A DNA stretch of 64,000 nt from Zygnema cylindricum (Eukaryota > Streptophyta > Zygnematophyceae > Zygnematales > Zygnemataceae): assembly GCA_037447655.1 (NCBI GenBank), contig JBBHKE010000012.1, positions 54,400 through 118,399 of the forward strand, given 5' to 3'. The notes below the pieces were generated by a model. That model did no database searches and was not told the DNA's origin. It was given only the letters and a program-made list of their open reading frames with translations. Made by a program: the position numbers and the translations under genes. Below are positions 33,557 through 55,820 of the stretch, one piece after another. Each line of letters starts with the position of its first letter. Positions within the stretch are counted from its first letter, which is position 1.

Positions 33557-33796
33557 TGTCGTGCATGGCAGTACAACCGTGAAAGGCATGCATCACATCC
33601 AGTGTGGGTCGCCGATAAACAGCAGAAAATGAATGACCATTACATATGTACAGTATTTGTGACCACAATGGGAGTACAAAACATATATAACGCAAGAAAC
33701 AATAAATGAATCTGCTTGGAAAAACAAATTATTCCAAACACATGGACCTAGCAAGAAAATAAAAGACAAAGCAAGATCGGGTAAGTAAGGATGGAA
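33557..33796 (-). repeat. Gypsy-M repeat B2 (240 bp, 3' terminal)
   Basis: Near-identical to 34144-34383 (B1). Read on the minus strand it starts TTCCATCCTTACTTAC and ends TGCCATGCACGACA, which is the element terminus. Confidence 0.9.
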
Positions 33797-34141
33797 TTGA
33801 CGACCGCTGCGTGGCCGCCTCGGACTGCCTTACATCTACACCTGGAGGATGAAAACCCTCCCTAAGCTAAGCAAAAATGATCCATGAACCTCCAAGGGTT
33901 CATGACTTCAAACACCTGTCAAGTTTGTAGCCGTTTGAATTCCTAACGTCTGATGCCGTACCGCGGTCTAGTTCCAGCTGATTTCACATCGTGTTCCCGT
34001 AGTGCCGTACGAGAGTATATTCTGACCTTTGTCCCTTTCGAATCTCTAGTTGTACTCTCGGATATAAACCTGTCACGTCACCGAAACATCAATTAGTACA
34101 CAATTAAATCATAATACCCGTTGACGTCTTACGGCATGACA
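33797..34141 (-). repeat. Gypsy-M repeat A2 (345 bp)
   Basis: Starts TGTCATGCCG like A1 and A2 of Gypsy-P, and contains the matching GGGAGGGTTTTCATCCTC region. It is much shorter than the Gypsy-P A repeat and lacks its last 560 bp. Confidence 0.75.
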
Positions 34142-34143
34142 GC

Positions 34144-34383
34144 TGTCGTGCATGGCAGTACAACCGTGAATGGCATGCATCACATCCAGTGTGGGTCGCC
34201 GATAAACACCAAAAAATGAATGACCATTACATATGTACAGTATTTGTGACCACAATCGGAGTACAAAGCATATATAACGCAAGAAACAATAAATGAATCT
34301 GCCCGGAAAAACAAATTATTCCAAACACATAAACCTAGCAAGAAAATAAAAGACAAAGCAAGATCAAGTAAGTAAGGATGGAA
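34144..34383 (-). repeat. Gypsy-M repeat B1 (240 bp)
   Basis: Lies between the G-run polypurine tract (C run at 34384-34396 on the plus strand) and A2, separated from A2 only by GC. Confidence 0.9.
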
Positions 34384-34429
34384 CCCCCCCCCCCCCAGCC
34401 CGCGGGGGAGCTGGTAACGACAGCCGGTA

Positions 34430-34667
34430 GGTTGCGACACCCGTGGCAAAACCACTGTCCGGCCGGGATAGTGTGCAGAGTTGGAACCAAACACTCGATA
34501 TGGAATCCCGGATTGCAATAGTCGCAGAGGAGCATTGTTGTTTCTCCATCAGATCGTCGGCATAACTGACACTCACTAGCCTCGATAATCGGCATCCGCC
34601 ACCGGTCCATGCTGTGGGAAAGATCAGGTAAATAGCAGGGGGCACAATTTTTCGAATGCTCCTGCAA
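34430..34667 (-). CDS. PHD finger at the C-terminus of Gypsy-M pol
   Basis: Open frame downstream of the integrase. It contains a complete C4HC3 PHD finger: CQLC, then LLCDYC, FHIEC and WFCHGC, with the conserved Trp two residues before the last pair. PHD fingers bind histone H3 tails. In chromoviruses a chromodomain sits at this place and guides integration, so a targeting role is a fair inference. A decayed PHD at the same place in Gypsy-P (52858-53010) shows it belongs to the family. Confidence 0.8.
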
Positions 34668-34799
34668 AGTTCACTTGTCGGCCCCTTATAGGCTCAATAA
34701 TCCATTGGAGTCAATTTTTGTTATCCTCAAGATATGAGCTGAAACATCCGTGTCAATGTGTCAAAAGTTTGCCGCCGCAAATAAAAGTAATCCCCCACC

Positions 34800-35754
34800 C
34801 GGAAGGGTTTTTGTTGCGGCCGGTAGCTGCCACTCGGAGTCGTCGCAAATTGTAAGGAGCCGCGATGTTGGGCAATCTACAGGTTTTCAAAAGCCATGGG
34901 CATTTCTCTAGCGAAAAGCAACGCTCGGTTAGTTAGTTCTTCCAAAAATAGAGAATCAGACATAAGAGGTTGAGATAAGCTCGCGGCTTTCAGTACATTC
35001 CTACCTAGTATTAGTTTTCGACCAAACAACACATAATAGGGGCTGAAATTTGCCAGGCTAGCCTGTACAAATATGCGATAACCCATGCAATATATCCCAA
35101 TGATTCATCCCACACCGTAATCTGTTTTTCTAAGCAATGTTTACGCAAAACACGCTTAAAGGTTTGTACAACTCTCTCTGCCAAACCGTTTGCTTGAGGA
35201 TGATCTTGGCTAGTCCGCCGGTGATCGATTAACGCCTCATCCAGCATCTCCTGAAATTTGCCACGGAACTCGGTTCCTTGGTCTGTTAGTACTTCTGCGG
35301 GGGCTCCATATTGGAGGAGCACGTGCTCCTTAAAAGCTACGGTGGTAAATTTGGCAGATTTTTGCGAGAGTGCCACAACTTCCACCTATTTATTGAAATT
35401 CTCGATCGTTATCATGATGTATTGTTTGCCCCTTCAAGAAATGGGAAAGGAACCTGCAAGATCACACGACCACCTGTAAAAGAGACCCAGAATAGGCAAG
35501 GGCTGAAGGGAGGTTGGTCGGTTAGAAAATGAAGTTCGTAGCCGGTCACATGTGTTGCATTCCTGCCACACAGCTGCCACATCAGCCTGCATACCAGACC
35601 ACCAATACCGTATTTGTACCAAACTCAAAGTCCGTTTGGTGCCATAGTGTCCAAGGTCAGTATGAATTTGGTTGATAAGTGATAGTCGTTCCGTCAGCCG
35701 TGGGACATGCCGGTGACTTCCATCTGAGAGAAGACGAATAAGTGAGCCCCCCAT
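34800..35754 (-). pseudogene. Gypsy-M integrase
   Basis: Zinc-binding HHCC region with IHTDLGHYGTKRTL and CNTCDRL (about 35680-35550). The catalytic core has VLTDQGTEF and HHRRTSQ-like sequence followed by DHPQANGLAERVVQTFKR, giving the second Asp and the Glu of the DDE triad. The C-terminal barrel motif RVGDYFYLRR lies near 34810. The frame shifts between the zinc region (35434-35754) and the core (35011-35385). Family: Ty3/gypsy integrase. Confidence 0.88.
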
Positions 35755-35999
35755 TCATAAGTAACTTTGGGCTCTCTTACGAACACGCTCCTCTTCCATT
35801 GGTACGGTGCCCGCTCGAAAAGATTGAGTAGATAGAAAAAGAATTAAAGCACTGCCCCGCCATGGATCGTGTTCAGTTTTGTGGTTTGTAGGTGCTGCAA
35901 AATTGTAAATCAGATGTGCTCCAACTGATAAGGCGACAACTGATTCGTCATCAAAATCTTGTCGTACACCATTATTATTGGAGTGGGGCAAAGGGTTCT

Positions 36000-36470
36000 T
36001 GGAGAGACCGTCGGCATTCAAACTGAGAAGCTCTGGTCGATGGATTATTTCCATGTCATATTCTTGTAAAATAAGAGCCTAACGTGCTAATTTGCCAGAC
36101 AACTTATCATTGGTCATAAGCCAATGCAATGGTTGATGGACAGTAAGAAAGGTGAAAGGCTTGCCATAAAGATAGTGGCGGTAATGTACAATTCCCCAAA
36201 CTGCGGCAAGGCACTCCCCCTCGTAACTACCGTAATACGACTACGCTTGATTGTTGCTTCGATTGGCTTAAGCCACTACATATTCGTCACCTGTAAGTTC
36301 ATACTGAGTTACGATGGCCGCAATACTTGGCTTACCAACGTTTGTTAGTAGGCAAAATGGTAACTTATGATTTAGTGGACGAAGAATGGGAGCGGTGGAC
36401 AATGCGTCCTTTAATCCCTGAAATGCCTCGATCTGGAGGGTCCCCACATGAACGGAATTGACTTATTCAA
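36000..36470 (-). pseudogene. Gypsy-M RNase H
   Basis: In pieces, the minus strand encodes AFQGLKDAL, a YGSYEGECLAAVWGI-like segment, and RWALILQEYDMEIIHRPELL, then NADGLSKNPLP, the usual end of gypsy RNase H. Stops interrupt it. It is separated from the RT by the solo LTR at 36529-37632. Confidence 0.78.
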
Positions 36471-36528
36471 GAATTGATTTAGTGGGGATGCAAGTGTACT
36501 GAAACTAGGAACAAACCGTCGGTAATAA

Positions 36529-37632
36529 TAAAACTCTGAGACCTCCATAAGTCCTCAGAGTGGACAGCTTCTAAGAAGCCTCCAGGATAATCCTGACCCC
36601 TTTGTGTTTCATCAAAAATAACTGCCACCCTGGCAAGCAAAAACTCTGACCACCTGCACCCCTGTGAAGGCAAGACTCCCTTGAGTCGATAGCAAAAAGA
36701 ATCTCTGAATTTGCTCCCCTGAGTAGTAAGTTATGGAGGGTGAGTCGATAGCAAAAAGAATCTCTGAATTTGCTCCCCTGAGCAGTAAGTTATGGAGGGT
36801 CAAAGTTGACCTTTTGTACAGAAGCTCCTCTGGGAGAGAGGATCCTATCTCCTAATTTTTCTAAGTCCTATCTCTCTCACAGACTCTATCTACTGATGTA
36901 CGGAACCAATCAGATTTCTCCTCCGTACACAAATGTACAGTCGCCGGTGTACTTTATGTACGGAAATTGTACAACATGGCCTAAATGTCGACACATGTCA
37001 TATCCAGATTCGGTGCTTTAATCTCCGGAGATACCACGATCCAATGTAATTTCGCCACGTGTCATCTGATGTGGCGATGCCCATAAACCGCCGAATTCTT
37101 CTTCTGAGATCTCGGCGCTATTTCTGGCCGTCCGATTAAATTCACATTTGATCGGAGCCGTAATAAATACATGCGCGGTATTTGTTTCGCTTACGAAATC
37201 AATGCGCGGTATTGATTTCTTATCCGTACCGCAATTCGTACTTTTACACTACTGGTTCTATGTATCCCGTAAACAATTATAGTTAAATGATATATCCTAC
37301 GTAATAATGTTTAAATAGTTATCAAACTATATAGTACGTAATACTACTTCTAGACTTAACGGCTAAGGTTACCGACTACTGGTAGCTTGCCGGTCGGCAG
37401 GTTCCAGGATCAAATCGCGTGGCCGCCGCATATATTTTTACTTAAAAAACCCCAAATATATATTTCCCGTAAACCTCAAGATAGCCTAGGTAGCCATGGC
37501 TCTAGCTTCCTCTCCAATTTCTCAGTGACTGCGACAAGTTTGAGAGTTGGAGAGAGAAGTTAGAGGTAGTCTGCCTCGGCTTCTTTCTTATTTCTGACCT
37601 AGAAAATATTTTAAAAACCATTAATTTCTACA
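36529..37632 (-). mobile_element. Solo LTR of the Copia-2 family inside Gypsy-M
   Basis: 1104 bp, starting TGTAGAAATTAATGG and ending CAGAGTTTTA on the minus strand, with a 5-bp duplication AATAA at 36524-36528 and 37633-37637. It matches the 5' LTR of Copia-2 (59280-60328) along its length. A unit of about 58 bp is tandemly duplicated inside it (36681-36797). It splits the gypsy RT from RNase H. Confidence 0.95.
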
Positions 37633-38412
37633 AATAATTGGCTAACCCCAGGAATGCACGCAGGCTAGTCAAATACGTTGGGGCCGGGAGTTTACTAATT
37701 GCTTCCACTTTGACTTCTAACGGAGTAATTCTCTCTGATGAAATAAAGTGCCCAAGAAAAGGTACACCTTCGGCCCCGAAAGTGCATTTGGCAGGATGAC
37801 ATTTGAGTCTTACCTTTTTTAATTCCTTCAATACCCACTCTATATGCACTGCATGTTCCTCTAATGAGGCTCAAGCGATGATTAGATCGTCGATATAGCA
37901 ACGGGCAAACTTACATCCCCCCAAGACTGAGTCCATGACTTTGTGGAATAGCGCCGGTGCATTTTTCAGTCCAAAGGGCATAACCGCCCATTCCCAACGT
38001 CCGTCACTACCCCAAAATGTAGTCTTATGTCGATCTTTTTCCTCTTTTTCGATCTGATTAAATCCTGTCGCAGATCTAAATATTTAGCTCCTCCAACATG
38101 ATCAAAAATGTCCTCAGCCAACGGCATTGGATGTTGGTCTTGGATTGTACGTGCATTCAGTTCTCTATAGTCCCCACACGTGCGACGTTTTGTAAAATTC
38201 CCCTCGACGTCTTTTTTACGAGGCATGATGGTGGGCGCCGCAAAGGCGGAATCGGACCTATAAATCAGACCTGCCTTTCCTAACTCTGCGCATCGTTTGT
38301 CTGCAGATTCCCATTCAGTTTCGGATAGACGATGCTTGGGCTTAAATATAGGTCTGTCATCTTCCAAGTCAATAGACATTTTGTAAGTGGTGTGTCGACC
38401 TAAGTCTTTCAT
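37633..38412 (-). pseudogene. Gypsy-M reverse transcriptase
   Basis: Contains RTCGDYRELNART (about 38180), GAKYLDLRQ, WAVMPFGLKNAP (about 37970), the active site CYIDDLII (about 37900) and LGHFISSERI near 37750. A stop follows YIDDLIIA and the frame shifts after LDLR. The last residues FLGLANYL abut the solo LTR. Confidence 0.88.
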
Positions 38413-38876
38413 GGAGAAAGCAAATGCGTCTACGTTTCAGTTTATGACTTCATCTAAAAGTTCGTGTTCGGTTTGTGTTAGTCCTGTTCCGAATTTCTAT
38501 GTCGGTTATTCAAGCGTGTTAATGGTCATGGCTTCCATGGCTTGTGCAAATGCTAGCTGTACATCTGCTATCAAGGAGTGACCCAACTCATACTCGACAG
38601 GAAGATGATGCAAACAATTTACTGCGTGATGCCAACTTGTAGACGGAAATGCAGCTGTCCAGTGTGGTGATGCCTATACCGGTTCTTGAGATCTAGCGGA
38701 CGTGTATGCTGGGAGAGACCAACTCATGTGACTAGGTTCTAAAAATCATAAATAGTGTGATCTGTGTCAAACTTAGCGGGGAAAGGAAAAAGATCGAGCT
38801 GAAAAGTTGTACCCCGAAGAGAAGGTGACGATTTGGATGTTGTATGTTTAAATGGTGTATGCCCCCCCCCAGATGA

Positions 38877-39900
38877 TTAAGAAGGATTGTTCTGTGCGTA
38901 CCGGCCAGCTGCAAACCCCATGCGGAAGACGAATGACAATGATTGGGGGTCCATGACTCGACCAAGTAAGATGCAGCGCTGCCGCTCGGTGAGTCCTGGA
39001 GCAGCAGTGGTGTCTGAGATGAAATGTAAAAGATGTTCTTGTTCTGCGGTAGTAGGTTCTTCTAAGCTGCCTGTATGAGTATTTTGAAGAATGCCCGGTC
39101 CATTATGTGAGTATGCGTGAGAATGTGGATATGCCACTAGTGTAGGCTGTGCACGTAGTGGTTGGCCCGGGATGTTAATACCAAATGCAGGAGGATAGTT
39201 TGTATGTATACATGTCTGGACCTTATGAAATGGAAGAAGTGTATCCTGAATGGAAAGGTTAGGCGGTCGGACGGCGAGGTTAGCTTCTCGGAACCGACCC
39301 ATGTCCACTAGGTTAGTCCACTTGGAACAAACCCGGTGGGTCAGCGAACCGTGGCTTGTGGCATCGATAATTAACAGTGGACCAATCAATGATTCAATGC
39401 GTTTGTAATATGCGAGAACCGTGGGTCGGGGATCGTTATAAGCTGCGATATTTTCTAGGATGTATCGGAAAGGACGATCCAGTTTTTGGAAGAAGTGGAT
39501 CAGACGAACCACCTCGAAGAACACCTTAGTACGCGGATTTGCGAGACCTAAACCTTTCCCGGCCCTTGACATACCCTGACATTCCCATCCGGCAAAGAGG
39601 AGATCAATTAGTTCCAATTCCATTAAATGATGATTTCCTATTAGCCGGATATCTTGTGGCAACGCCGAATGCATATCGTGAAACGCAGACTGGGGTAAGA
39701 GATGAGGATAATGTTCGTGCAAGACTTGACAGTGGTGCAACTGAGCGCGTCTAGCCTAGGGGTCAATATCTACGGAATAGTAATGCTTTATCAGAAGATC
39801 CTTTTGAAGGCAAGAGAGAAGTGAAGTCCCTATTCCTACAAAAAGGTCGAAGATAACGAGACCATTTTGGTGAGGTTGTAAATTGACTGGTGTCCATTTA
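38877..39900 (-). pseudogene. C5 cytosine DNA methyltransferase domain in Gypsy-M (DNMT3/phage-like)
   Basis: Methyltransferase motifs occur in order. Motif I is IFDLFVGIGTS (about 39850). Motif IV is LLFAGWECQGMSRAGKGLGL, with the catalytic Cys at about 39581; the usual Pro-Cys reads Glu-Cys. PRTKVFFEVVRLI follows, then motif VI RYILENI (about 39455), motif VIII IIDATSHGSLTHR and WTNL (about 39320), and a motif X-like RQRCILLGRVMDPQSL near 38960. This pattern is that of DNMT3-type and related phage enzymes, not of a host gene with introns: it lies between protease and RT. One in-frame TAG (39756-39758) separates motif I from the rest, so as written it is interrupted once. The open frame ends at 38877, close to a run of nine G. 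Confidence 0.88.
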
Positions 39901-40747
39901 ATGGGCAAGAACCCGGAAGGATCTATCGTAATGGAGGGTGGATCTGGAATACTAGATAAAGGAATTGGTATAGTAAATTTATATAGCCGGTCAAAATTTG
40001 AAGAGTCAATGGTAAATTCGGGTGTACTAAATAATTTTGGTAAACTCGGGGAATCTGGTGAGATTTCATCCGTTGTTAGAGATTCAAGGATGTTTGCACC
40101 TATGCCAACTGCGGCATAGGCTGGCAAGATTAGCGCCGAATGGGCCGTGGTAGGCATGGGTTGCCGCGCCGAGATAAGGGGTAAGCAAATTTTATGTTCC
40201 GGAAAGTTGTTCAGTCTGTACGAAAATGTTTGATCGTGCATATCAACCCCCCCCCTACGCGTAAAATTACGTCTTGGCTGACAAGGCATTCATAATCACT
40301 ACACTTGGTGACCAAGGCGTGGGCATATATTCCTACAAAATCTGTCTCTGGCTGACTCTGAAACTGGAAACAGACTGGTGCCTTTGTAATTCCGAGGACC
40401 AGTTTTGTGGTACCTGTGGAAGTCAACAGACGTGTGGTAGTGGGTTGTAGCTTATCTGCTGTAAGACCTATTTTGATTGCAAAATCTGAACCGAGGATAA
40501 TTAGCTTTGCGCCTGTATCCGTGAGAGAAAGTGCCGGAGCAAACCCATTCATTGTGAACACGCCCAATTTGTTATCTAGAAAACTGATGTGAGGAGTGAG
40601 GCTAGAACGCTCTTCAAGAGTAATAACTTGAAAGGAGAGAGCATGACGATGGTTATGTAATGCTTGTAACGCAACTGCTGAAAGAGTATGATCTACATGA
40701 TTTTCGTTGATATCGAACTCGAGGAGCATGGTGGACAGGATTGACAA
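39860..40747 (-). pseudogene. Gypsy-M aspartic protease and linker
   Basis: The active-site motif LSLTDTGAKLIILGS lies near 40520, followed by DYECLVSQDVILRVGG. A run of nine G (40247-40255) then shifts the frame; the next frame continues GVDMHDQTFSYRLNN. In Gypsy-P the same region reads without the shift (FRNCGGVDMHVQTISYRPSN), so the run is the cause of the break. Confidence 0.82.
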
Positions 40748-40999
40748 ACGTTCTTTGACCTTATAAGTGTCTTGTATGCTCCTCTCTAGGATTGTAAATG
40801 CTTCAGCAGTGATGCTAGAGGCGGTTTCTGGAATCGGTGAGCGGGGTTCTTTAGCAAATGATAGTGGGATACGTGTGTTAATGGATTTTGACTCACGATT
40901 ATGATCGCGAGTCCCTTTAAACTGAGCTGCCCGCTGTTGAATAGTGGACTCCCTAAGAGATCACCAAGCGAAAGAGGGCATATGAACCATAGTTCGAGC

Positions 41000-42563
41000 C
41001 ATTCCACTTAATTGCGGTTTGACCTGCGCCATAAGCGCGGCAAACTGCTCCTTCATCATGGCCGCCACAGTAGCCTGCATCTCGGCTTTCTCTCGGTCCC
41101 TCCTACTGATTTTTGGAGGGTTGTCTTTCTCTACCCCCTTGGGTGGAGTGACCAATTTTGCCGAGCGAGCAGGTATACCGCTGTTTTTGAAATGATTTTG
41201 ATAACTAAAATTGGGATTCTTAATGTGACATCGATGTACATAATGACCCGTTTGATTACAATGAGTACACGTGGCAGTCTTATCCGGACAGCCGCGTGCG
41301 TCGTGACCGCTGTTACCACATCGAAAGCATATACGAACACCAAGGGGTTGTTGGTAATGTTCCCATAGTTAGAGCCCTTGGGGGTCTTGTATTGGGCGAT
41401 GGGTTGCGTGGATTAGGATTAGGATCCGGGTTTGCATTAGGAGAAGATTTGGGTCGCTCATGAGCGTCCCACCAGCTAGTCTGCATTTCATACCGTACGG
41501 CATACTCTGCAGCCTGCTCGAAGGTAAATTTGAGGCCATATGCCTCAGTCAAATGGCTTTGAATGAAACGTCGAGATTGGGTGGGAAATTGCCCCACAAA
41601 TTTTTGAACTGCCTCTACGTCTGACATGAGATCTGGTAATGCTTCGCGTAATGTTTCCATACGCGCCCGCTATGCCGAGGCGGTTTCGCCTGGGCGACGT
41701 TCGAAATTCATTAGTTCTTTAACCTGATCGGGGTTCTGCATTCGGTACTCTTCCTGTAATAAACTGAAAACAAATGATACTGGATCCCTTAAAGAAACCA
41801 ACATTGCAGGGCGGGCTGGAATTCCAGCCCGAGCCGCAACGGCGAACTGATGAGGGACCTCAGGTATTTCAGGTGAAATTTTGTTGCCTGCAAAGTCATA
41901 ATTTGCAGGTACAACAACTTGGAAAAGAATTTCTAGACTGCCTGTTTTGGCTAAAGATCTAGAATATGCGGGTGCCATTTGTGTCATAACACAAATTGCC
42001 GCATATTTTCGTGTATATAGAGATATGGGAGATCCCCAAAGGTATCGCCCATGTTTCGAAAAAGCAACCGGTAAATCATAACGGTTTTGATACCGGAATG
42101 CAATATCGCGCATCTCGGTATCAAAAAGCATTCGAAAATGTGACAAATACATAGTGTCCTTAAGACGCGAAAAATAAAACTGATTTCTACCTCCTCCGGT
42201 GTCTATAGACAAGGCCATATCCATAAAATAGGAATCTGAGTTAGTGTGTATATTTCCACTCAAAGGAAAAAACGAAGGTGGTAGATTTAGATCCCGGATA
42301 TCAAGGGAGTCTATGTCTGAATCTTCCCCCTAGCTATGGGAAGAGGATGAGGAGACAGATGAAGTAGATCTATACGTGCTGATAATACCAGATCTAGAGT
42401 CAGGTGAACTCGTAAGCTGAGACTGAGCAGACTGACCAGTATGACCTAAAAGCTGGACTGAAGGTGAGCGGGCGGGGATCAAATCCCGATCCGGTCCACG
42501 GTAAAGACTGGAGCTCCTAGTGATACCAGCTTGAAACGATTGATTGTTCCAGTCTGTTGGCAT
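41000..42563 (-). pseudogene. Gypsy-M gag with two zinc knuckles
   Basis: Probable start MPTDWNN at 42563, conserved in Gypsy-P (MPTDWDN at 50687). The capsid region contains FRYQNRYDLPVAF, MQNPDQVKELMNF and LREALPDLMSDVEAVQKFVG. Two CX2CX4HX4C knuckles, CFRCGNSGHDARGC and CTHCNQTGHYVHRC, lie at about 41330-41230. Two frame breaks are present (near 42300 and 41670). Confidence 0.85.
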
Positions 42564-43547
42564 GTAAACAGACAGTAGTCCGGTTGTCCTATCCGGATGC
42601 AACTAGATGCCAGACCCTACTCAGGGTCAGTGGGCATATGCCCACTACCAGATCTATTGATCAAGTCACACAGGAAGTCTTTAAATTCACGCAAACAGGA
42701 ACCCACGCAACCAAGCACCCCCGAACGATTTGATCTATTCTGTATCACCGGGGTTAGTCTAATCGTGAACACCCCTAACAAGGCTGTCACAGCCAGATCT
42801 AAGCAATACCACATTAAGTTACTTCAAGCCACTCCAAGAAGAAACATGTCACCTATGCAAGGCCACTTGTGGCAAAATTTAATAAAACAGGAAACTATTC
42901 AAGGCCCACAAGGCTAGATGTAGAAAACAGAAACCTATCTTGGCCCAACAAGGCCAGATGTAATAGACAAGAAGTCGCTATCTAAGAAAAATCACGGTCA
43001 GATCTAAAGAAAATGCAACCACAGCGCCTATGCGGAAAATAAGGCACAGCATTCGGTCAGATCCTAACCCCTTTAGGTTATCGCGCTTAACAACCTATCA
43101 CGCGCCTGCAACCACAAGGACCCGATTACTCACCTAGAGCTAGCGGTAAGGTTTTCCAATTGATGCTCCAACCTCCCTCCAATTCCAAATCGTCGAATCC
43201 AATTCCAAATCGTCGAAAAGAGATCACAACTTAAAAATACCAACGTAGTTAGTAGCATGTTAGGGCACGTGTATCAGCACTATGCCACGCTCTGCCCGTC
43301 TATAAAGCAATGACAATTTTCGTGATAATTCGTGCAACCTAATATATATATATTTTTTTTTCTAAGGGTTATTTTTTTTTTTTTTTTATAAGTTTTTAAG
43401 TTTTTTTTTTTTTATCTTTTTTGAGTGAGTTAATCCGGTAGGAAGAAAGAAGAGAAAACGATACCGGAACAGTTCAACAATCTCAAATCCAACAACTCAA
43501 AAACAAACTAGGTAACAAATAAAATGAAAACAACGCATAACAAATAT
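42564..43547 (-). other. Gypsy-M 5' leader with repeated hairpin units
   Basis: No coding frame. Between 42780 and 43060 (minus strand) short units recur, each with a small inverted repeat such as GGCCTTGTTGGGCC and a nearby GTTTCTGTTTT-like stretch. T/A homopolymers follow towards the gap. Confidence 0.55.
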
Positions 43548-43557
43548 NNNNNNNNNN
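43548..43557. other. Assembly gap (10 N)
   Basis: Ten N stand where the 5' repeat of Gypsy-M would be expected nearby. Confidence 1.
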
Positions 43558-44092
43558 TGCTTACAGGAAAACAAAACAAACCTGCACTTTGCAGGAACTG
43601 CAGTAGAGTGCAGTTGATTTTGCAGCACTAAACTAAGTACTAAATCCATGTCATGCCTTGTAAGTAAGCCCTATGCTGAAGTACAAAAAAGTTTAAGCCT
43701 AAAAACGTAAGGCTTTTCCCAAGGACCTTTTTTTATACTGAATGGTGTTAACAGTTCAAAACTGCGTGAACTGGCACGTAGCGACGGACAAAATATACGA
43801 TTTGGAGCGTAGCGACGGACAAAAACGTACGGTCAAGTGCGTCAAAACTTGACAACTGTGGTAAGTCATATTTTTTTCCAGGAACCCTTTTCGGAATGCA
43901 AAAATCCGAATTTGAAAAAACATGAAGTCGTATCCCGAATGAATGTTCCGTACTGTACCTAAATCATGAATCAAATCACGACGTTTTAGTTGACGTGAGA
44001 TGACGTCAAGGACGTTTCACGTCCAAACAAAACAAAAGGACATTCGTTTCCTCATATAATTCATCATCCATTCCGGTGTGAATGCAGCGCGT
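43558..44092. other. Sequence between gap and TIR-element copy
   Basis: Includes short hairpins (CTGCACTTTGCAG near 43590) and a TAGCGACGGACAAAA direct repeat (43778 and 43808). No gene seen. Confidence 0.45.
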
Positions 44093-44644: not shown

Positions 44645-44647
44645 CCT

Positions 44648-45417
44648 TAGAAATATTTTCAATGTTTCAAAATTAGTGTACCTTAACAATGTAGACCGTA
44701 CAAAATTAACGAGTTCATATCGAACGACTCCTAAGTAAAAGCTAACTATAAAATACCGTCCGATTGACAAGATTGGACAGACAAAAAATTACCAGAATCT
44801 GAAAGTGGACCACTATGATGCCCACTATGACGCAGCGGTTTCGTCAAGTATAAAGTTTCAATGTCGCTAATAACTTTGTGGAAACGAGAGTTTGTCTTCA
44901 CGTGTATTTGTTTATTAGTGTGTACAGTTAGTAAAAGTCGTACGTAGACAATTGAGGTTTGTCCTATTGTACGCAACAATAGACAAACCATTGACTAAAT
45001 TAACGTACATCAAGCACATAAACATATTACTTTTGAGTAAGGTTATAAAGTACCGTAGCACTCTTTTCAGCGTTATGACTGACTATGTAGGTAGTAGTAG
45101 AATTTATTAGTATAAATTCTAGGACTTAGTGATTCTCATGTATTCCTTGTACAAGGTTTCAAATGGCAAATTTTTTTGCATTTTAAGGGATATTCTTTGG
45201 GCTATATCTCTTGGTTTAATAAGGAGTTTTGCTTGAAACTTTGTGAGTTGTCACCACACGCGGTAACTGTATTGTGTTATAGTTTGGGGCCATTTGGCCA
45301 TATTGACTGCTTTAAGCAGTGGGTGAAAGTCGGTATATTGAGTGCTTCCTCTTTTGGTTCTGTGATGGCTTGTGATTTAGTGGCAGTTGGTGCTACTACG
45401 GTTGTCATAGAATAACA
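44648..45417 (+). repeat. Copia-3 5' LTR, lacking its first ~58 bp
   Basis: Matches 56338-57121, including GGGCCATTTGGCCATATTGA and the end GAATAACA. The sequence GGTTACGAGCCCTCC after it is a mutated form of the half-tRNA primer site of Copia-2. Confidence 0.88.
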
Positions 45418-45449
45418 GGTTACGAGCCCTCCCTCAATGTTACCTATTT

Positions 45450-47830
45450 TCGACAGCACTGGATATATTTATTAGGCAGATATGGTGGAGTTATATTTTC
45501 TAAATATTGATCTTATAGAAGTCTTGGATGGATCTTTGGCCGAATCGGATGCCGGCTGAAAGAAGAAAAATTTGCACTGTCTTCACATCATCAAACTTCT
45601 CATTTCAAAAGAGCTTGTAACGGCTCATATCCACATGAAGAAGGCGTCAGAAATATGGAGCTTTTTGAAAGATACGCACACCAAAACTAATGTTCAGCAC
45701 AAGAAGATTAAGGCTGGAAAAATTTGGGAGTATACGTACACTGGCGGAATATTGTTATGGTTTAAGAAAATTACTACACTTGTCCAGGTGGCATTTTTCC
45801 TAATGACCAACAAGCATTGTTGTTAATGAGAGGGCTTCCTATTGAATATAAAAGAGCCTCTGACAATTTGAAAAAATTACCGCAGGTTGAGTGGAATGTA
45901 GCGATAGCAATTCAATACCTTTTAGATGAAGAGTCTAGTCAAAAAGCTCTTAAAAGTAGTAGACAAGGTGAAGCTTTAAAAAAAGAAAGCGTTCGAAAAG
46001 AACAGTTATATAATAGTCAGATTCAATATCCTAAAAGACCTGATGTATGCTACTATTGTAATGAAAAAAAACACGGCTATAGAAGTTCTCCAATATATTA
46101 AAAGGCTTCTGAAAGTGGAATCTTTCGTCTAGGTTGGTATGCAAGAAAATTAGAATTTCGCAAAATTACACAAACTTATGCCTTCTCCTCAAAAATTACG
46201 AAAAAGGAAGAACAAGTTGTGAGTTTTTCGGAAACAAACGAAAACTCCTTTTTTGCACATACTAACACGGCTACAGGAGATAAAAATTTCGGCTGGGAAA
46301 TGGATACGAAAAAAGAAGGTATAATAGAAGGTGTAGAATTTAGCAAAAAGGAAGAAATTTTATGCAATGGTTTTTATCTCGAAAATATAGATATAAATCC
46401 TTGTGAGAGAGGCCATAGAACATGAAAAATGTTAGAATTAGTTCACTTGGATGTAGAATTAGTTCACTTGGATGTAGAATTAGTTCACTTGGATGTATGG
46501 GGACCAGCTAAGATCGCATCAGCACGTTGTATGAGATACATGGTGACGTTCAAAGATGACTATTCAAGCGACACGAAAATTTACTTCATGAAGGAGAAAA
46601 ATGAAGTGTTTTCCCACTTTAAAGAATTTAAAACCTGGAGCGAGGAAATTCACGGAATTCCAATACGAACATTGATATTGAAAAACAAAAGGGAATATTT
46701 ATTACTAGATTTCATCACCTATCTAGAAGAGAATAAAATATCCTATAAAAATTTAGAGATCAATGTCGAAGTAGAGAGAGTAAACAAAACATTAACTACA
46801 ATGGCCATACCAATGGTTGTAGACAAAAGTGTCGATTTGAAATTTTGGGCTGAGGCCTTAAACTGTGCCACATATTTTTATAATATAATAGAGTCTAGAG
46901 TAATCAAAGGAAATTCACCTCATGAGATATGGACAGGAAGAAAACCAATAGTTAGTCACCTTAGAGAATTTGGTAGCAAGGTTATCATTCGAGATAGTAC
47001 TCAGACTAGGTGGAAAATGGAGCTGAAAGGTATACCTGGAATCCTAGTTGGTTACGATGATTTGTCGGCAGAATATAGAGTATATGTACCAGAGAAGAAT
47101 AGGATAGTAGTAACAAGAAATATCATTATCAAAGATGAGAAGAAATCAGATGATATTTCTCAGTCAATTGACAGAGTTGACAGAAAGGCAGAAAAAGTTA
47201 CTGAATATGTCATATTCAAACCTAGGATGGATCAAAGTGTAAAGTTACAAGAACTCGATAAGGTGAAAAACGTAGGTATTGACGTGCATTTGTCGTCGTT
47301 GGAACAACGACGACATGATCTCGTCGCTAGATCATCAATGACGGGCGCCGGAGGAAAAACAAAAAGTACCGATGAAACAACTTCATCGTTGATTCAGGGA
47401 CATGATGATGTCGTCGCTAAAAATCTGAAAATGTCCACAAACTGTTGTAGCACAAGTTCCGAAAAATGTGCAATGTCGTTTGATAAGCGACGAGATCCCC
47501 TCGTCGCTAGACCAAGAATTTCAAGCACCGGTGGACCATCGTTAGCGCAGAGACCAAAAATTGACAATCGGACTAAACCTTCGCAACCTCAAAATTTCCG
47601 GGGGGAAGTTGGAGAATTAACCGGAGGAATGCTTTTAGAAACCGCTATTTACTATTTGATAATCAAAAGGAGCCTCTTACCCTTCAAAAGGAAATTTTTG
47701 AACCCGAAAAAGAGTATAAGATAACGACAACAAATGATACAGTGACACCTATTTTGGATGCCAAAACTTGGGAAATCTTAGAGCTTTCACCGGATCGAAA
47801 ACCTATTGGAAATGACCTACAAATAATATA
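45450..47830 (+). pseudogene. Copia-3 gag and integrase fragments
   Basis: Gag pieces carry RGLPIEYKRASDNL and a decayed knuckle CYYCNEKKHGYR (about 46050). The integrase frame (46429-47724) starts with three copies of ELVHLDV from a 21-bp tandem repeat, then WGPAKIASARCMRYMVTFKD and FWAEALNCATYF. The catalytic SDNGGEY reads LKNKREY, so the enzyme would be dead. The frame ends in an RT-start sequence LSPDRKPIGND. Confidence 0.85.
46436..46498 (+). repeat. 21-bp tandem repeat, three copies, in frame
   Basis: The unit GAATTAGTTCACTTGGATGT appears three times, encoding ELVHLDV repeats at the integrase HxD-WGP motif. Confidence 0.95.
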
Positions 47831-47897
47831 AATAATGATTGAAAGAAAAACCAAAATTAAGATAGTTTTAAAAATGCAAGTTCAAAATGCAAAATTT

Positions 47898-49033
47898 TGT
47901 CATGCCGTATCGTGTCGGCTTCTCGCGCGCACGTTATCATGCACGCACGGGCGGTATTCTTCATGCACGCATGGTATTTCTCACGCACTCGCAAAATTTC
48001 TCACGCACGCGCGGTATTTTGTATGCACGCGCAGTTTAAGGCACGCGCGCGCGGTTTCATGCATGCACGCGCGGTTTTATGCATGCACGCACGATTTTGG
48101 CACGCGCGCATCATTTTCGTTCGCACGTGCAATTTCACGCCGGTTCATCTATTTATATGTTTTGTTGAAACGTACTAATTTCGTACTAGACGTTTTGTTT
48201 CGTGCGCAAGTACACACTTTTGGAGTATTTCGTGCGATACCTTCTATTTCGTGCGTAAGTACTACGATTTCGAAGTATGGACGTGGAGTATCGTTTGGAG
48301 GCGAATCGCAATTTCCGAGCGACGCTTCGATACACCATTTATTTATTTATTTAAGTCGCGAACCCATGTAGGTTCGCGCGCACATGTAGTTAGGGAGGGT
48401 TTTTACCCTCGGACGGTGGATTTTGTCAGGCGTACGGCAGACGATGTTGGCCGCCTGTTGGCCAACATCTTAAGTAGTTTCATGCATGTAAAGTAGACTA
48501 ATTGTAGGCTAATTTTGCTTAGGCCTAGGGTAGCTCTTACTTAGCCTAATTCTCAGACTTAGAGAATTTAGCTTTTGGACAAGAATTTTCTCTTAGCAGC
48601 GCGACTTTTCTCTTGCTCTCTCTCTCATCGATTGCCCACGTGTCTTTCTTCTCCTTGCTAGCTAGCTGTAGATGTTAGATAGAGTAAGACTATTCTCCTT
48701 GTTTTTCTGCCCTCGTTTTTAATCCACACGGCCTAAGGCCACGTCCGGAAGGTTTCCCTCCAAAGTTTCTCTTTTGGTGGAAGTGTGGAATTGGAGATCG
48801 TGGGGGAGCACATCTGGACCTTGTTGTGCATTCCTCGGGCAGCTTGACGGTTTGGTTGTGTGTTTTGTCTTTTTTTGTATTTCGGTTGGCTTGGAAGGAG
48901 TGTATTTTTGATCGGAATTGGATTTTCCCTTGTTGCGGTTAGAATATTTCTTGCTTTGCTGTCGTAACGGGATAACTCTTGTAGGGAATGTGATAAAGAC
49001 CAGAGAGCCTAGTGGCTACCTCTTGGCTTAGCA
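47898..49033 (+). repeat. Gypsy-P repeat A1 (5' LTR-like, 1136 bp)
   Basis: Starts TGTCATGCCG, ends GGCTTAGCA. It contains a CACGCACGCGCGGTA minisatellite (47935-48115) and, at 48569-48586, the segment complementary to the primer site. It matches A2 along its length. Confidence 0.9.
47935..48115 (+). repeat. GC-rich minisatellite in the A repeat
   Basis: About seven degenerate units of 24-27 bp follow the pattern CATGCACGCACGCGCGGTAT. The same array, slightly rearranged, is at 53271-53460 in A2. It lies in the probable promoter part of the LTR. Confidence 0.85.
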
Positions 49034-49050
49034 TTCTTGTCCAAAAGCTA
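49033..49050 (+). promoter_or_regulatory. Gypsy-P primer-binding site, self-priming type
   Basis: ATTCTTGTCCAAAAGCTA directly follows the A1 end and is an 18-nt perfect complement of TAGCTTTTGGACAAGAAT at 48569-48586 in the same repeat. Self-primed elements such as Tf1 fold the 5' end of their RNA back on the primer site in this way. No tRNA 3' end known to me fits. Confidence 0.7.
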
Positions 49051-50686
49051 CACTTTTCAAAATCACATTTTCTAAAAGTCTATTCTTTTTTTAAATAAAT
49101 TATTAAAAATATAAAATTTTATTTCATAAAAAAAAATATTACTTTTCATATTCAGTTTTTATTCTTGTTTTTGTTTTTCCATTTTGCATCCACTTTATCT
49201 TTCATTTTAAGTTTTGCTTCTCAGTTTGGTGTGAGAACAAAAATCTAAAGAAAATAAAAATAAAAATTACATTATTTTCAATATAAAAAACATCTTTTCA
49301 TTTCTAAAATTTCTTCCACCTATTTTTGATTTGGTTTCTACCTTTTTATCCGGATTTATCTTTCTACGAGTTTTTCCCCTTCTTTCTCTCCATTTTTGAT
49401 TTTGCTTTCTCTTTTGTCTTGAGAAAAAAATATGATAAAAATATTTCAATTTACAAATTTTATTTAGAAAAAAAAACACATTTTGTTTTTGTTTTTTTTG
49501 CTTTCTTCTCTCTTTCTTTCGATTTTTCCCTCCTATCTTGTTGGCACTCCATTTCTAGTCTGCAGATTTAGGTCTGATTTTGTGTCAGATTTTTAGGGTT
49601 AATCTGCAGAATTAGGTTTTGGCTGCAGATTTAGGTTTTGGGCCGCAGATTTAGGGTTTGGGCGAATTTAGGGTTTATTTTTTGGAATTCCTCACCCTAG
49701 GTCAGCATTTTACCATTCCTTGGTCGCAGATTTTTTATTTTTGCAGCGTGGAATTAGGGTTTGGGAAACCAATCGCCTAATTCTACCGCACTTTGTGTTT
49801 TATTTTGAAGTTTTCTCTATATTCCTTATCTTTCTTTCCTTGTTGCCACTTTGTTTGCTATCTAGTGGATATTTGTTTTGTGTTAGATTTGATATTTTCT
49901 TTCATCTCTTTCTACCAAACTTAATCAATCAGAAAACCTAGAAAAACAAAATATTTAATAAATTTAATAGGGTTGCACGAATTGTAACCTAAAATTATCA
50001 TTGCTTTATAGTTGGGTATAGCGAGGGATAGCACTGATACGCATACCCTAGCAAGATAATTACTTCTTTGTTTTTTAGTGGTGGTTTTGGGCAAAATTAT
50101 TCAGTACTGGAGCCTAAGGACTCTGCAAAATCCAACTTGCCTCGACCAAGTCCGGTTCACTTTTAGTACTCACCAGAGTATTAAAGGTGTTTGTAAGTAT
50201 TTCGATGCCCTGTGGGTGTAGGAGCGTCACGATATAGTGTGGACAATAGTGCAGAGAAATCGGTGTGGATTGGTTCTATTACGAACCTTTCTTTTTGAGC
50301 ATTTGCACTTTTCTTGCTTTCCTTGCATGCTATCTAGCCGTGAGCGGCCTTCAATTTCCCTGTCACTGTCTGGATTGGATTTTCTTCATAGATCTTTTCA
50401 TTGGTGGCATTGTTTAGACAATTTTCTGTCTGTGCCGCTGTAGATCTGCACCGAAAGGTGCCTGGATAGTTCTCTGTTTGTTTTTATAGATCTGGCCCTT
50501 CGGCCTTGCCCCATTGTTTGCAGGGTAGAGGTTTTGGTATTCTGGCTTTTTGCTAGATCTGACCACCGGGTCTTGCTAGAGCTTTCGTGTGTTCGCTTGT
50601 TTTGTGTGGATTGGCCTGTCATTTGACGCACCTCGGTTAGGTCGTTCCGAAATTTCCAGTCATACTCGAGGGTTTTGTCTTCTTGT
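49051..50686 (+). other. Gypsy-P 5' leader
   Basis: 1.6 kb without a supported gene. 49560-49690 has several CAGATTTAGG(G)TTT words. 50390-50610 contains four units beginning TAGATCT, three of them with a small hairpin (GCACCGAAAGGTGC, GGCCCTTCGGCC, GACCACCGGGTC). Comparable units occur in the Gypsy-M leader. Confidence 0.6.
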
Positions 50687-52880
50687 ATGCCCACGGATTG
50701 GGATAACTTACATTATCCATCCGGATCTACCCGCGGCGGGAAAGTTTTACGTCCACCGCAGTTAGATCTTTCTAGTTTACACAAGTCTACGGAGGCACCT
50801 GTTTTGGTTGCGGCCCCTAGACCTCCGTCAGTTATGTCATTATTGACCACAGTAGGCTTCCTCTTCAAAGGGGGGCATAGGGAAGATGCATTTTTGCTTT
50901 TCGAGATTGAAGGACACCATGTCTTTATCCCATTTTTGTATGCTTTATAATACCGAAATGTGTGACTTAGCATTTCGTTATCAAGATCGATTTGATCTTC
51001 GTGTAGCATTCTCTCTTCTCGGTGGATAACTCAGAGGGTCGAACCTTACATTGTATTCTCGCAAGTATGATGCTCTACTTGCGATGATTGAATTTTCCCC
51101 TCTTTTTGTTGGTGCACCAGAGGTCATAGGACAAGCGGGTATTCCGTTCCAGGCCGCTTTTCCTGAGGTATTAGATGCCCATGGTATTGTCTTTATTCCC
51201 GCAATCCCACAAATTCCTCGGCAATATGCCGTGGCCACTCGTGCTGCTGTACCAACACGACCAGGGATGATAATTTCGTTGCGGGATCCACTTTCTGTTA
51301 TGTTTGATTTCTTAGAAGCCGAGTATCGGATGTCAAACCCCGATCAGGTGAAAGAATTGATGAATTTCACGCGTAAACTAGGTGAAACCGCCCCTGCTTT
51401 ATGTGCTCGCATGGAGACTCTGCGAGAAGCTTTACCGGACCTAATGTTTGATGCGGAAGCTGTTCAAAAATTTGTTGGACTATTTCCAGATCAATCCAAA
51501 CGTTTTATACAAAGTCATCTCACTTGGATGATTTCCCTGTCCCCACCTCCTCATCCCTTCCCCTCCCACCACCCTGGCCCAACCACACGCTTCCATGGGA
51601 AACCCGTTTTACGACCGATGCCCACAAACCACATGTGCCCGCATGTGCCCGTAATGACATGCCCATTGCAACCAGCAGCAGCACTCCATTTTATTCTTAT
51701 TTAGATTGCATTCTGCTTTTCTGCCCCTACCGAGAGACAGAAAGAGGCAATTTCTTAAGATCTCGCAGAGGGAAAGCACGGGCATTCTAATGGCCGCCGC
51801 GATGAAGGAACATTCGCTTCATGGTCAAATGAAACCCCCTGGAGGAAGACGTTACATGCATCTTACAATCCTCCGAGATTATATTGTCCAACAACGAGCA
51901 GCTACTTTTGACAAGGGCTCGCCTGATCACAATCATGACGGTAAATTACAAAATTCCGGTCTTCCAGTTTTTTTCGAGAGAGAATCTCTCTCTCCTCGAC
52001 CAGACACAACTTCCTCAATTGTGGCTGAAGCTCTCACTATCTTGGATAGTACCATACATGATGCACATCGAGTGAAGGAACGGCTAAGCATCCTTTCTAC
52101 CATTGTTGACGAAGTTCCTAGTGTCTCTCCATTTCCTAATGAGGTTCCCAAAGCCTCTCCCCTTGTTGATGAGTTGGCTGTAGTGCCGCTTTGATGGCGT
52201 TGCAGCTGAACCATAGTCTTTCAGTTATTCAGCCGGTTACCGTAGATGAGCCCCGTGACCTTGATCCTCACATCAGTTTCCTGGACAATTGTCAAAAGTC
52301 CTTCTGCGTTAATGGTGTTGCTCCTTCTCTCCCTCTCATGGACACCGGAGCCAAACCCGTGATCCTCGGATCCGGATTTGCGCTCAAGCTTGGTCTGACC
52401 GCAGAACAAGCTTCAAGCCACGGCTACGCGGCTTCTCACTTCAACCGGTACCATGGAGTCGGTGCTTGGAATCACCAAGGACCCGCTCATCTTTCGATTC
52501 CAGAATGGAACCGATGGTGAGTCCGTGGAGGTTTTTGTCCGAGCATTGGTCACCAAATGCAACGACTACGAATGCTTAGTGGGACAGGATGTTATCTTCC
52601 GAAATTGTGGAGGAGTAGATATGCATGTTCAGACCATCTCTTACCGTCCCTCTAATTTTCCGAGACACAAAATTTGCCTCCCTCTTGTCTTTGCTCGCAA
52701 GCTGTTGCCCACTATGGCACATTTGGCTTTCGCTCTCCCTGCATTTTCCAGCATCGACCTTCGAGATAGTTTAGTGAGCTTGGTTTTCTCCTCGACTCTG
52801 GTCATCTCTTGGATACCGTCGACACCGAGGTCTTTCCACACATTCTCCACGTGGTGGATTGCGATACTAATGGGATGTTG
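50687..52880 (+). pseudogene. Gypsy-P gag and protease, broken
   Basis: Starts at MPTDWDN. It continues in a second frame with MCDLAFRYQDRFDL, then MSNPDQVKELMNF and LREALPDLMFDAEAVQKFVG (51051-51530). The knuckle region is lost. The protease motif LPLMDTGAKPVILGS lies near 52335, then YECLVGQDVIFRNCGGVDMH. The sequence is cut off before methyltransferase motif I and joins the PHD remnant. Confidence 0.85.
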
Positions 52881-53020
52881 AGTTTGCAGAGGGTTTATAC
52901 ATGTACATGTGGTGATCAAGGGTTCCACATGGAGTGCCTCTCTCCTCCAATATCTTTCAACCCTGCTGACATTTGCTGCTGTTCCAGGCCCTCTGCTGTG
53001 CTGACCAGCCCCTCTACAAG
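52855..53020 (+). pseudogene. PHD finger remnant of Gypsy-P
   Basis: A frame with VDCDTNGMLSLQRVYTCTCG followed by GFHMECLSPP and CCCSRP is collinear with the Gypsy-M PHD (MLLCDYCNPGFHIECL). The first Cys pair and the Trp are lost. Confidence 0.7.
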
Positions 53021-53040
53021 CTAAGAAGCTGGGGGGGGGG

Positions 53041-53231
53041 AATTTTTGGGTCCACTTCACTCAAGGGAAGTATTCTTCCCTTTCTCTCTTTGGGTCATTT
53101 TCACCTTTATTCCTTCTCTTGGAGTATATATTTTTTGGCATTTCATATTTATTTTCGTTGTTATATATGTTTGTGAGCATGACTTTGCCGGTTTTCATGC
53201 ATGTTTGCTTGCTTGTCTCTCATACACAACA
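53041..53231 (+). repeat. Gypsy-P repeat B1 (191 bp)
   Basis: Starts AATTTTTGGGTCCAC right after the run of ten G and ends ATACACAACA. It matches B2 at 55630-55820. Confidence 0.9.
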
Positions 53232-53233
53232 GC

Positions 53234-55629
53234 TGTCATGCCGCATAGTGTCTGCTGCTAGCGAGCACGTTATCATGCACGCACGCACAGTATTCCTCAC
53301 GCACGTGCGGTATATCTCACGCACGCGCTGTATTTCTCACGCACGCGCGGAATTATGCACGCACGCACGGTATTTTATATACACGCTTCGTTTAAGGCAC
53401 GCGCGCGCGGTTTCATGCATGTACGCACGGTTTTATGCATGCATGCATGATTTTGGCACGCGCGCATAATTTTCGTTCACACGTGCGCTTTCACGCCGGT
53501 TCATCTATTTATATGTTTCGTTGAAACGTACTAATTTCGTGCTAGACGTTTCGTTTCGTACGCAAGTACACACTTTTGGAGTATTTCGTGCGATACCTTC
53601 TATTTCGTGCTTAAGTACTACGTTTCGAAGTATGGACGTGGAGTATCGTTTGGAGGCGAATCGCGATTTCCGAGCGACGCTTCGATACACCATTTATTTA
53701 TTTATTTAAGTCACGAACCCATGTAGGTTCGCGCACACATGTAGTTAGGGAGGGTTTTTACCCTCGGACGGTGGATTTTGTCAAACGTATGGCAGACGAT
53801 GTTGGCCGCCTGTTGGCCAACATCTTAAGTAGTGAAATTTTATAGGCTCCATTGCCCACAGAATTCGCAGATCCAAAAGAAGCTAATCTTGATAGTGCCG
53901 CCTCCAAGTTGATATAAACCCAAATGAATGATCCCTTGACAATCAGAACCCCAATACACCTTCACCCGTGTGAAGACAAGACCTTCTGTGTGCTCAATTC
54001 CACCACAGAATGCAAAGCTTGAATATGTGTTTTGAACAATATTCCCCACTTTGACTTTCCCACTGAATAAGTGCCACCCTGGCACGCAAAGACTCTGACC
54101 TACTACACCCTTGTGTAGCTTGGACTCCCCTGAGTCCGCAGCAAAAAGAATCACTGAATTTGCTCACCCGAGCAGTAAGTTATGGCTGGTCAAAGATGAC
54201 CTTTATAATTACAAGCTCTCTTAGAGAGAGGTACCTAAATATCACTAAGTCTTGGTCTACCTACTCACGACTACCTACTACTAAACCCTAGTCCAATAGG
54301 AACACTATATAGTACAAGAAGGTACAATAGGAGATGTACTTATTGTACGGCCATTGTACGTTATGGTCTTCAAGGTGACACCTGTGAAATCGGGAGCCAT
54401 GGTTCCTCCTCCCATCTTCTCCGGTATCAAATAATGTGGCGCCACGTGGCACCGCGTGACGCTATCTCCAAATGCCGCCAAAAGCTCACTTTGCGTGGCG
54501 GCTACAATGGCGGCCTTCCGATCAAAACATATTTTACACGGTTCAGATTCGCGTACATGCATGAATTGCTCCTTTTCGTTAGTCTGTCGTTAATTAGCTG
54601 TTGAGTTGACGTTTGTATATTTTTGAAACCCGTAACGTGTATCGTTTCATCAACGCCTTATAGGATAAGGCATACTTCTTCAAATATAACCATAAATCAG
54701 GGTTCAAATCCGGTTTAGGGCAGTCTTTGGTTATTTGTTAGTTAGTTAGAATTCTCTTCTTGTACATTTATAATTAATTACTGTACCCTACAAATGCCAT
54801 CGTTGACTCTAAGCTATAGGCTAAAGCTAATGTCTATTATAGCATGTTGGTACCAGGATGAAATCCTGATTCCGGCATATCCATTTTGGTACAAACTACG
54901 ATTAGCCTATCCTCTTTAGACAGCCATGGCTCTAGCTCTCTCTCTGGTCTTCAGTGACTGCAACAAGTATGGGGACCGGAGAGATTTGAGCGAGAAGCAG
55001 GTTGCCTTTGCTGACTTACTCTATTTATTTTTCTAATACAGACCTAGAAAATACATAAATTTCAACAAGTAGTTTCATGCATGTAAAGTAGACTAGACGT
55101 AGGCTAATTTTGCTTAGGCCTAGCGTAGCTCTTGCTTAGCCTAATTCTCAGACTTAGAGAATTTAGCTTTTGGACAAGAATTTTCTCTTGGCGGCGGAGC
55201 TTTTCTCTTGCTCTCTCTCTCACCGATTGCCCACGTGTCTTTCTTCTCCTTGCTAGCTAGCTGTAGAGGTTAGATAGAGTAAGACTATTCTCCTTGTTTT
55301 TCTGCACTCTTTTTTAATCCACACGGCCTCAGGCCACGTTCGGAAGGTTTCCCTCCAAAGTTTGTCTTTTGGTGGAAGTGTGGAATTGGAGATCGTGGGG
55401 GAGCACATCTGGACCTTGCTGTGCCTTCCTCAAGCAGCTTGACGGTTTGGTTGTGTGTTTGTGTCTTGTTTATATTTCGGCTGGCTTGGAATAAGTGTAT
55501 TTTTGATTGGAATTGGATTTTCCCTTGTTCCGGTTGGAATATTTCTTGCTTGCTGTCGTAACGCGATAACTTTAGTAGGGAATGTGATAAAGACCAGAGA
55601 GCCTAGTGGCTACCTCTTGGCTTAGCATT
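53234..55629 (+). repeat. Gypsy-P repeat A2, interrupted by a solo LTR
   Basis: Matches A1: first part 53234-53832, second part 55068-55629, including the self-complementary segment near 55155-55180. The interruption is the solo LTR at 53833-55067. Confidence 0.9.
53833..55067 (-). mobile_element. Solo LTR of a Copia-2-related family in Gypsy-P A2
   Basis: 1235 bp, TG...CA ends, 5-bp duplication AGTAG at 53828-53832 and 55068-55072. It shares with the Copia-2 LTR the stretches GCAGTAAGTTATGG and GCAAAAAGAATC, and the GCCATGGCTCTAGCT region. It was inserted after Gypsy-P. Confidence 0.95.
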
Positions 55630-55820
55630 AATTATTGGGTCCACTTCACTCGAGGGGAGTATTCTTCCCCTTCTCTCTTTGGGTCATTTTCACCTTTATT
55701 CCTTCTCTTGGAGTATATTTTTTTTGGAATTTCATATTTATTTTCGTTGTTATATATGTTTGTGAGCATGTCTTTGCTGGTTTTGATGCATGTTTGCTTG
55801 CTTGTCTCTCATTCACGACA
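55630..55820 (+). repeat. Gypsy-P repeat B2 (191 bp, 3' terminal)
   Basis: Second copy of B1, ending TTCACGACA at the target duplication. The Gypsy-M 3' end is the same (CACGACA). Confidence 0.9.

Follow-up and report, generated by a model that had tools for sequence, protein, structure and literature searches.

Split direct repeats of the order A1-internal-B1-A2-B2 are described from the PAT and Ngaro elements, and more than one origin is presumed for them among elements with recombinases (PMC4157794). A repeat structure of the DIRS type has also been reported together with Gypsy domains, in KnitGypsy-Dnmt3 of Klebsormidium nitens (de Mendoza et al. 2018; PMC5890265). For retroviruses, the circle model of Panganiban and Temin (1984), in which integration goes through an attachment site other than the ends of the linear DNA, was abandoned after work on linear DNA (PMC11054761), and circles with two long terminal repeats (LTRs) are commonly held to be dead ends of replication (PMC5314604). 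Here, we describe two elements with split direct repeats, P and M, in a window of 64,000 nucleotides (nt) from Zygnema cylindricum (assembly GCA_037447655.1, contig JBBHKE010000012.1, positions 54,400 to 118,399 of the forward strand; coordinates below are window positions unless a contig is named). P and M are best explained as members of a large Ty3/gypsy lineage in which the attachment site for integrase is internal to the LTR. To judge from sequence, the usual precursor of the integrated copies is quite probably complementary DNA (cDNA) that has been joined at its ends and then opened at an internal junction between B and A. The region that the first-pass annotation had marked out for this family (33557-55820) contains both elements and also unrelated DNA, including the Copia host of P.

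P (47898-55820, plus strand) has the order A1-internal-B1-GC-A2-B2 and is flanked at each end by ATTT, a 4-bp target duplication (left copy, 47894-47897; right copy, 55821-55824). A1 (47898-49035), which starts with TGTCATG and comprises the remaining U3, R, and U5 regions of the LTR, is repeated as A2 (53234-55629, broken by a later insertion at ~53834-55066), and B1 (53041-53231, 191 bp), the start of U3 as it would be set by reverse transcription, is repeated as B2 (55630-55820), which ends in CACGACA. B1 and A2 are separated by a GC spacer (53232-53233) lying between CA and TG, the putative integrase cut site (CA|GC|TG). The layout and ends of P were as first annotated: homology of A1 to A2 begins exactly at TGTCATG, and homology of B1 to B2 ends exactly at CACAACA/CACGACA. 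P is nested inside a Copia element, and the chance of a 4-bp match between its Copia flanks is 0.0069. The two repeat pairs have diverged to the same extent (A, 72 of 1,141 sites, or 6.3%; B, 11 of 191, or 5.8%; Fisher P = 0.87), as if both had been made in one event.

The signals for reverse transcription lie at the edges of A and B. Directly before B1 is a polypurine tract of 10 G (53031-53040), the sole run of eight or more G in the interior of P, and at the edge between A1 and the internal region is a primer binding site for self-priming (49033-49050), the exact 18-nt complement of a self-primer segment at 48569-48586, where the RNA is predicted to start. The longest such complement in 300 shuffles was 11 nt (0 of 300 matched the observed value), the longest complement for 96 other windows of the P interior was 10 nt, and primer site and self-primer segment pair in the predicted RNA fold. 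Priming by transfer RNA was considered and rejected: inspection by eye finds no TGG at the primer site, and the self-complement is present instead. A search of 10 copies, one of them P, matched the primer site downstream of A1 in 7; in 6 of these, a complement of 14 to 17 nt lies ~470 nt upstream. With the polypurine tract before B1 and the primer site after A1, as the first-pass annotation had placed them, reverse transcription should yield an LTR of the order B-GC-A; since genomic copies start at A and end at B, the integrated copies are circularly permuted.

The permuted ends are the ends at which integration took place. Perfect 4-bp target duplications at the start of A1 and the end of B2 occur in 7 of 10 copies (P, ATTT; C971, AGAT; C631, TGCA; C1956, GCGA; C2129, CGAA; C1979, CATT; and C799, AAGT), with a P value of ~1e-13 at a chance of 0.007 per copy, and the integration ends read TGTC..GACA; both traits are in keeping with Ty3/gypsy elements, which have TG..CA ends and duplicate 4 to 6 bp of their target. 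Outside these 10 copies are C1814, for which A1 was not found; C2496, for which B2 was not found; and C2436, whose A1 would fall beyond the contig start. For one of the copies on C2460 (C2460a), no upstream A was found other than one with 83% similarity, which perhaps is not its own. The outer repeats are A and B, and the whole identical LTRs expected of a Ty3/gypsy element do not stand at both ends. We have very little doubt that the structure is real, multicopy, and integrating with target duplications at permuted ends.

At the joint of A2 and B2 in P (55629-55630), the U5 end meets the U3 start with neither loss nor gain: the seam, GCATT|AATT, brings together exactly the last base ahead of the primer site and the first base past the polypurine tract, and we know of no process that would make it other than the joining of both cDNA ends. 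Other copies, measured against their own U5 end and U3 start or those of a relative (the U5 ends of C1956 and C2460b come from relatives), have one base changed (C631), one added (C2460b), one lost on the U5 side (C2436), the same three lost (C1956 and C799), 13 lost (C971), ~19 lost (C1979), or 108 lost on the U5 side (C1814). In C2460a (locus L021, C2460 118702-119831), 469 nt are lost on the U5 side, up to just before the self-primer segment, and the seam looks as if R-U5 had never been copied. C2129 has a G run inside the seam, that is, a kept polypurine tract; a second site at which the tract is followed by B, 1.5 to 1.6 kb past the first, suggests from its position the same for C566, C1994, and C2027. 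This range of seams (exact, with small or large losses, and with a kept tract) fits DNA that has been end-joined rather than a templated join. Two tract|B sites, 1.3 kb apart, are also present on C1069 (10693 and 12024, minus strand), with a junction after the downstream one, and may belong to a three-LTR array.

By comparison, the B|GC|A junction is nearly constant among copies. Searching the window's own assembly (352.8 Mb) with the junction pattern at up to two mismatches gave 438 places, versus 2 for a reversed-pattern control. The spacer is AC in C1979, in C1814, and in 3 of 20 tract|B sites (picked from 60 exact sites, with known junctions excluded), and it is changed in 2 further of those 20. 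B1-GC-A2-B2 was present in all seven loci with enough flank, and 11 of 12 P-family stretches (P and those seven included) contain B2, as do 8 of 12 further junctions; the latter were drawn from the first 100 of the 438 matches, excluding the window's two, four matched earlier, and those on C152 and C173. Among the 40 other junctions in the first 100 (up to C1063), 35 follow a polypurine tract (32 with a run of at least six G by script, plus L055, L061, and L077, whose mutated tracts were recognized by eye), 2 come after the end of an A repeat (L053 and L054), and 3 are broken (L067, L082, and L087). In no case among the 40 does foreign DNA precede an intact start of B (the eight rows lacking a tract of at least six G were judged by eye), so the conventional identical LTRs that would have spoken against permutation did not appear among them. 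One of the broken loci, L087 (C1030:441900-442250), consists of tandem partial A units bearing the junction motif, which suggests recombination or repeated joining. In prokaryote contigs, the junction pattern had five matches, in bacterial metagenome-assembled genomes, which is about the number estimated for chance; searches of viral contigs (with methyltransferase, junction, and gag alignment) and of plasmids returned nothing informative.

M, on the minus strand, carries the coding evidence for the lineage. Its repeats are B2 (33557-33796, a 240-bp B ending in CACGACA), A2 (33797-34141, 345 bp), a GC spacer (34142-34143) within GACAGCTGTC, and B1 (34144-34383), preceded in the direction of transcription by a polypurine tract of 13 G (34384-34396). 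The palindrome attributed to the B/A junction is exact in M as GACAGCTGTC, whereas the junction of P has one change. The claim that M shares the arrangement of P stands for B1-GC-A2-B2 and the CACGACA end; no 5′ A1 was detected within the window, and homology to the P leader ends at the assembly gap 43548-43557. Reading along the minus strand, M has gag frames, a CCHC knuckle, and protease (together 40211-42329), a Dnmt3-like C5 cytosine methyltransferase (38877-39755; PF00145, E = 3e-08), reverse transcriptase pieces (37628-38436), of which 37628-37870 matches RVT_1 below the Pfam cutoff (E = 0.001) and 37966-38436 was recognized by eye only, integrase pieces (35011-35754), namely, an H2C2 zinc domain above the Pfam cutoff followed by a fragment of the DDE core (rve) below it, and a PHD finger at the C-terminal end of pol (34437-34571; PF00628, E = 7.7e-11). 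Frames are broken, and several matches are weak; no RNase H was detected in the scanned M pieces. The methyltransferase, which sits between protease and reverse transcriptase, matches DNMT3A, DNMT3B, or DNMT3C in 25 of 25 PDB matches. Judged from these pieces, M has gag, protease, and reverse transcriptase ahead of a DDE integrase, the order of Ty3/gypsy elements. Two runs of 9 G in M (38862-38870 and 40247-40255, minus strand), one of them just past the methyltransferase frame, are possible extra primer sites for the plus strand.

M and P are related by their predicted proteins: the gag piece of M is 50% identical over 123 amino acids (aa) to the gag-like frame of P (51030-51704, plus strand), and the protease piece is 61% identical over 71 aa to the protease-like frames of P (52173-52881, plus strand). 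Their LTRs have little in common beyond a 15-nt match that spans the junction (0 of 200 shuffles) and a weak 25-nt match. A DDE integrase, ascribed by the first-pass annotation to the whole family, is found in M; a profile scan of the P pieces gave no methyltransferase, reverse transcriptase, or integrase match.

These features suggest the following course of events. The RNA would start in A1 and prime itself at the edge of A1 and the internal region, in the manner of Tf1, and would be copied into linear DNA of the order B-A-internal-B-A. Both ends of that DNA would then be joined, U5 end to U3 start, by what we infer to be host end-joining, to give either a tandem or a circle with two LTRs. 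At one of the internal, palindromic B|A junctions, the DDE integrase would cut each strand after CA (CA|GC|TG), freeing two recessed CA ends with 2-nt 5′ GC overhangs, and the opened DNA would be inserted with a 4-bp target duplication. A two-LTR circle B-A-internal-B-A contains two junctions, such that opening the first would give A-internal-B-A-B, the usual form, and opening the other would give A-B-A-internal-B, the form that is rarely observed. A circle is likely to be the substrate rather than a dimer.

By its sequence, one copy, on C152, is the predicted reciprocal product. In separate stretches, it shows foreign flank, A, B, GC, A, and leader, then, ~9 kb further, polypurine tract, B, CACGACA, and foreign flank; its two A copies are 97.7% identical over 973 nt. 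At the other junction that follows an A, on C173, A ends after ~60 nt of similarity to that of P, and no leader was seen. Together with the seam and with the duplications at A start and B end, the C152 copy supports the earlier suggestion of integration from a circular or tandem intermediate.

Several observations weigh against this reading. A symmetric circle should give equal numbers of both products, and 35 standard versus 2 reciprocal junctions among 40 depart from this (P = ~1e-8); the integrase may prefer the junction of the 5′ LTR, or it may cut before the far ends are joined. B2 was not found within 1.8 to 4.3 kb in 4 of the 12 further junctions, nor in C2496. Among the 20 selected tract|B sites, 8 reach CACGACA or a close variant and then foreign DNA, a fraction that overstates this class because known junctions had been excluded in the selection (the script assigned 10 to "B end", of which L103 and L108 were counted as broken; the other 10 enter a junction with up to three mismatches). 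Three classes could account for these eight, namely, reciprocals, seams that retained the tract, and A-internal-B copies derived from one-LTR circles, and a search with the sequence context on the internal side of the tract (63 matches versus 0) does not tell them apart; one-LTR circles, with polypurine tract-B|flank ends, are perhaps the source of a third opening product. Neither of the C2460 copies has a duplication of its own; GTTG is the right flank of one copy and also the left flank of the second, which hints at a rearrangement. The flanks of the C152 copy (CTTC/CCTC) match at three of four positions. The primer site was unmatched in 3 of the 10 copies searched, and the complement in C799 is just 9 nt. 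The identical 3-base loss at the seams of C1956 and C799 could reflect inheritance rather than separate joining events. The integrase of M is in pieces with broken frames, and retroviral integration is established as using linear DNA (PMC11054761).

Of the alternatives, a tandem dimer survives best, though we regard it as unlikely: two linear cDNAs would be joined end to end, and two B|A cuts would release A-internal-B-A-B. Product and U5|U3 seam would be identical to those from a circle, and the paired tract|B sites on C1069 and C2027 (1.3 and 1.5 kb apart) indicate that longer arrays may exist; however, it requires the joining of two molecules plus two cuts and, no less than the circle, predicts equal numbers of reciprocals. 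Much less probable is copying of the kind proposed for DIRS and PAT, in which reverse transcriptase would bridge the RNA ends through B1-A2 and make a circle without end-joining, for integrase to open. The repeat topology is indeed that of the split direct repeats of PAT and Ngaro (PMC4157794), a circle model exists for DIRS1-like elements (PMC3266345), and C1956 and C799 have one seam variant in common. A seam of that origin would be templated and constant, whereas the observed seam differs among most of the copies compared, which disfavors a templated circle, and A and B have their edges at the self-primer site and the polypurine tract. An element with a tyrosine recombinase was rejected as a candidate: PF00589 is absent from 26 distinct M and P pieces, and M has DDE pieces.

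It is highly improbable that these are ordinary elements with B-A LTRs, of which P and M are rare by-products inserted from aberrant two-LTR circles; such an insertion is imaginable for any LTR element, but permuted copies are the rule here (none of the 40 junctions is conventional), and the outer ends of the P-family copies read at both ends are the start of A and the end of B. A conventional A-B LTR with deletions was likewise rejected, as it would need two precise losses, one at the tract and one at the primer site. That the arrangement is an artefact of assembly, of deletions, or of a solo LTR beside an element is next to impossible despite the scaffold gaps at 20146-20155 and 43548-43557, given that it recurs on several contigs with different target duplications and that A2-B2 of P has no flanking duplication of its own.

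Elsewhere in the window, near-identical neighboring blocks at 17278-22394 surround the 10-N gap at 20146-20155; one pair is 99.6% identical, and the blocks are possibly an assembly duplication. The LTR parts of the Copia host of P lie at 44646-45423 (5′) and 56335-57127 (3′), both on the plus strand, and its reverse transcriptase core could not be placed in either flank of P. An interspersed repeat of ~1 kb is present at ~53834-55066 (in A2 of P, where it is flanked by AAGTAGT), 36531-37634 (in M), 59278-60326, and elsewhere. Within P, a zinc-finger-like piece at 52770-53024 has weak similarity to the PHD finger of M.

The closest described element is KnitGypsy-Dnmt3, which, like M, combines a Gypsy Pol and a Dnmt3-type methyltransferase with DIRS-like repeats (PMC5890265). 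The likeness is one of domain content and repeat structure, and the available portion of that source gives no ends, duplications, primer site, joint, or mechanism (PMC5890265). In the literature searched, which did not extend to many subscription papers, the split-repeat Gypsy arrangement appeared only there, and no mechanism was found; the arrangement itself is therefore already in print (PMC5890265), whereas nothing in the same literature anticipates the mechanism, which would be new if it is borne out.

PAT, Ngaro, and their relatives rely on a tyrosine recombinase and leave the target without a duplication, whereas the lineage of P and M duplicates 4 bp of its target, has a DDE integrase, and bears both a polypurine tract and a self-primer site. 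If the reading proposed here is true, it shows how split direct repeats can come about while the enzyme stays the same. In Tf1, Tj1, and sushi, the edges of the LTR are also the integration ends; in the lineage of P and M, the integration ends lie inside the LTR. Common to both is a primer site complementary to an upstream segment of the same RNA (PMC4600332).

As to the cut itself, integrases of retroviruses act on comparable substrates in vitro: that of foamy virus cuts the palindromic two-LTR junction to leave a 2-nt 5′ AT overhang (PMC1180852), and that of human immunodeficiency virus type 1 cuts such a junction with strict sequence specificity (PMC1905944). The spacing of CA|GC|TG is that of the foamy virus site, with cutting after CA (PMC1180852). 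The retroviral palindrome is the U5|U3 seam itself, whereas in the lineage of P and M it is a fixed sequence within the LTR, and the seam is separate and variable. If the reading is true, a DDE integrase can take joined cDNA as its normal substrate, and this genome is one in which integrations derived from circles can be counted individually. The evidence from these sequences leans toward an abundant natural lineage in which a DDE integrase routinely acts at a site within the LTR of cDNA that has been end-joined and is probably circular, and, with the same moderate confidence, we see in it a working form of the abandoned circle-junction model of retroviruses, with two opening products. Where the model of 1984 was set aside, the genomic copies of P, M, and their relatives carry the product that it led one to expect.

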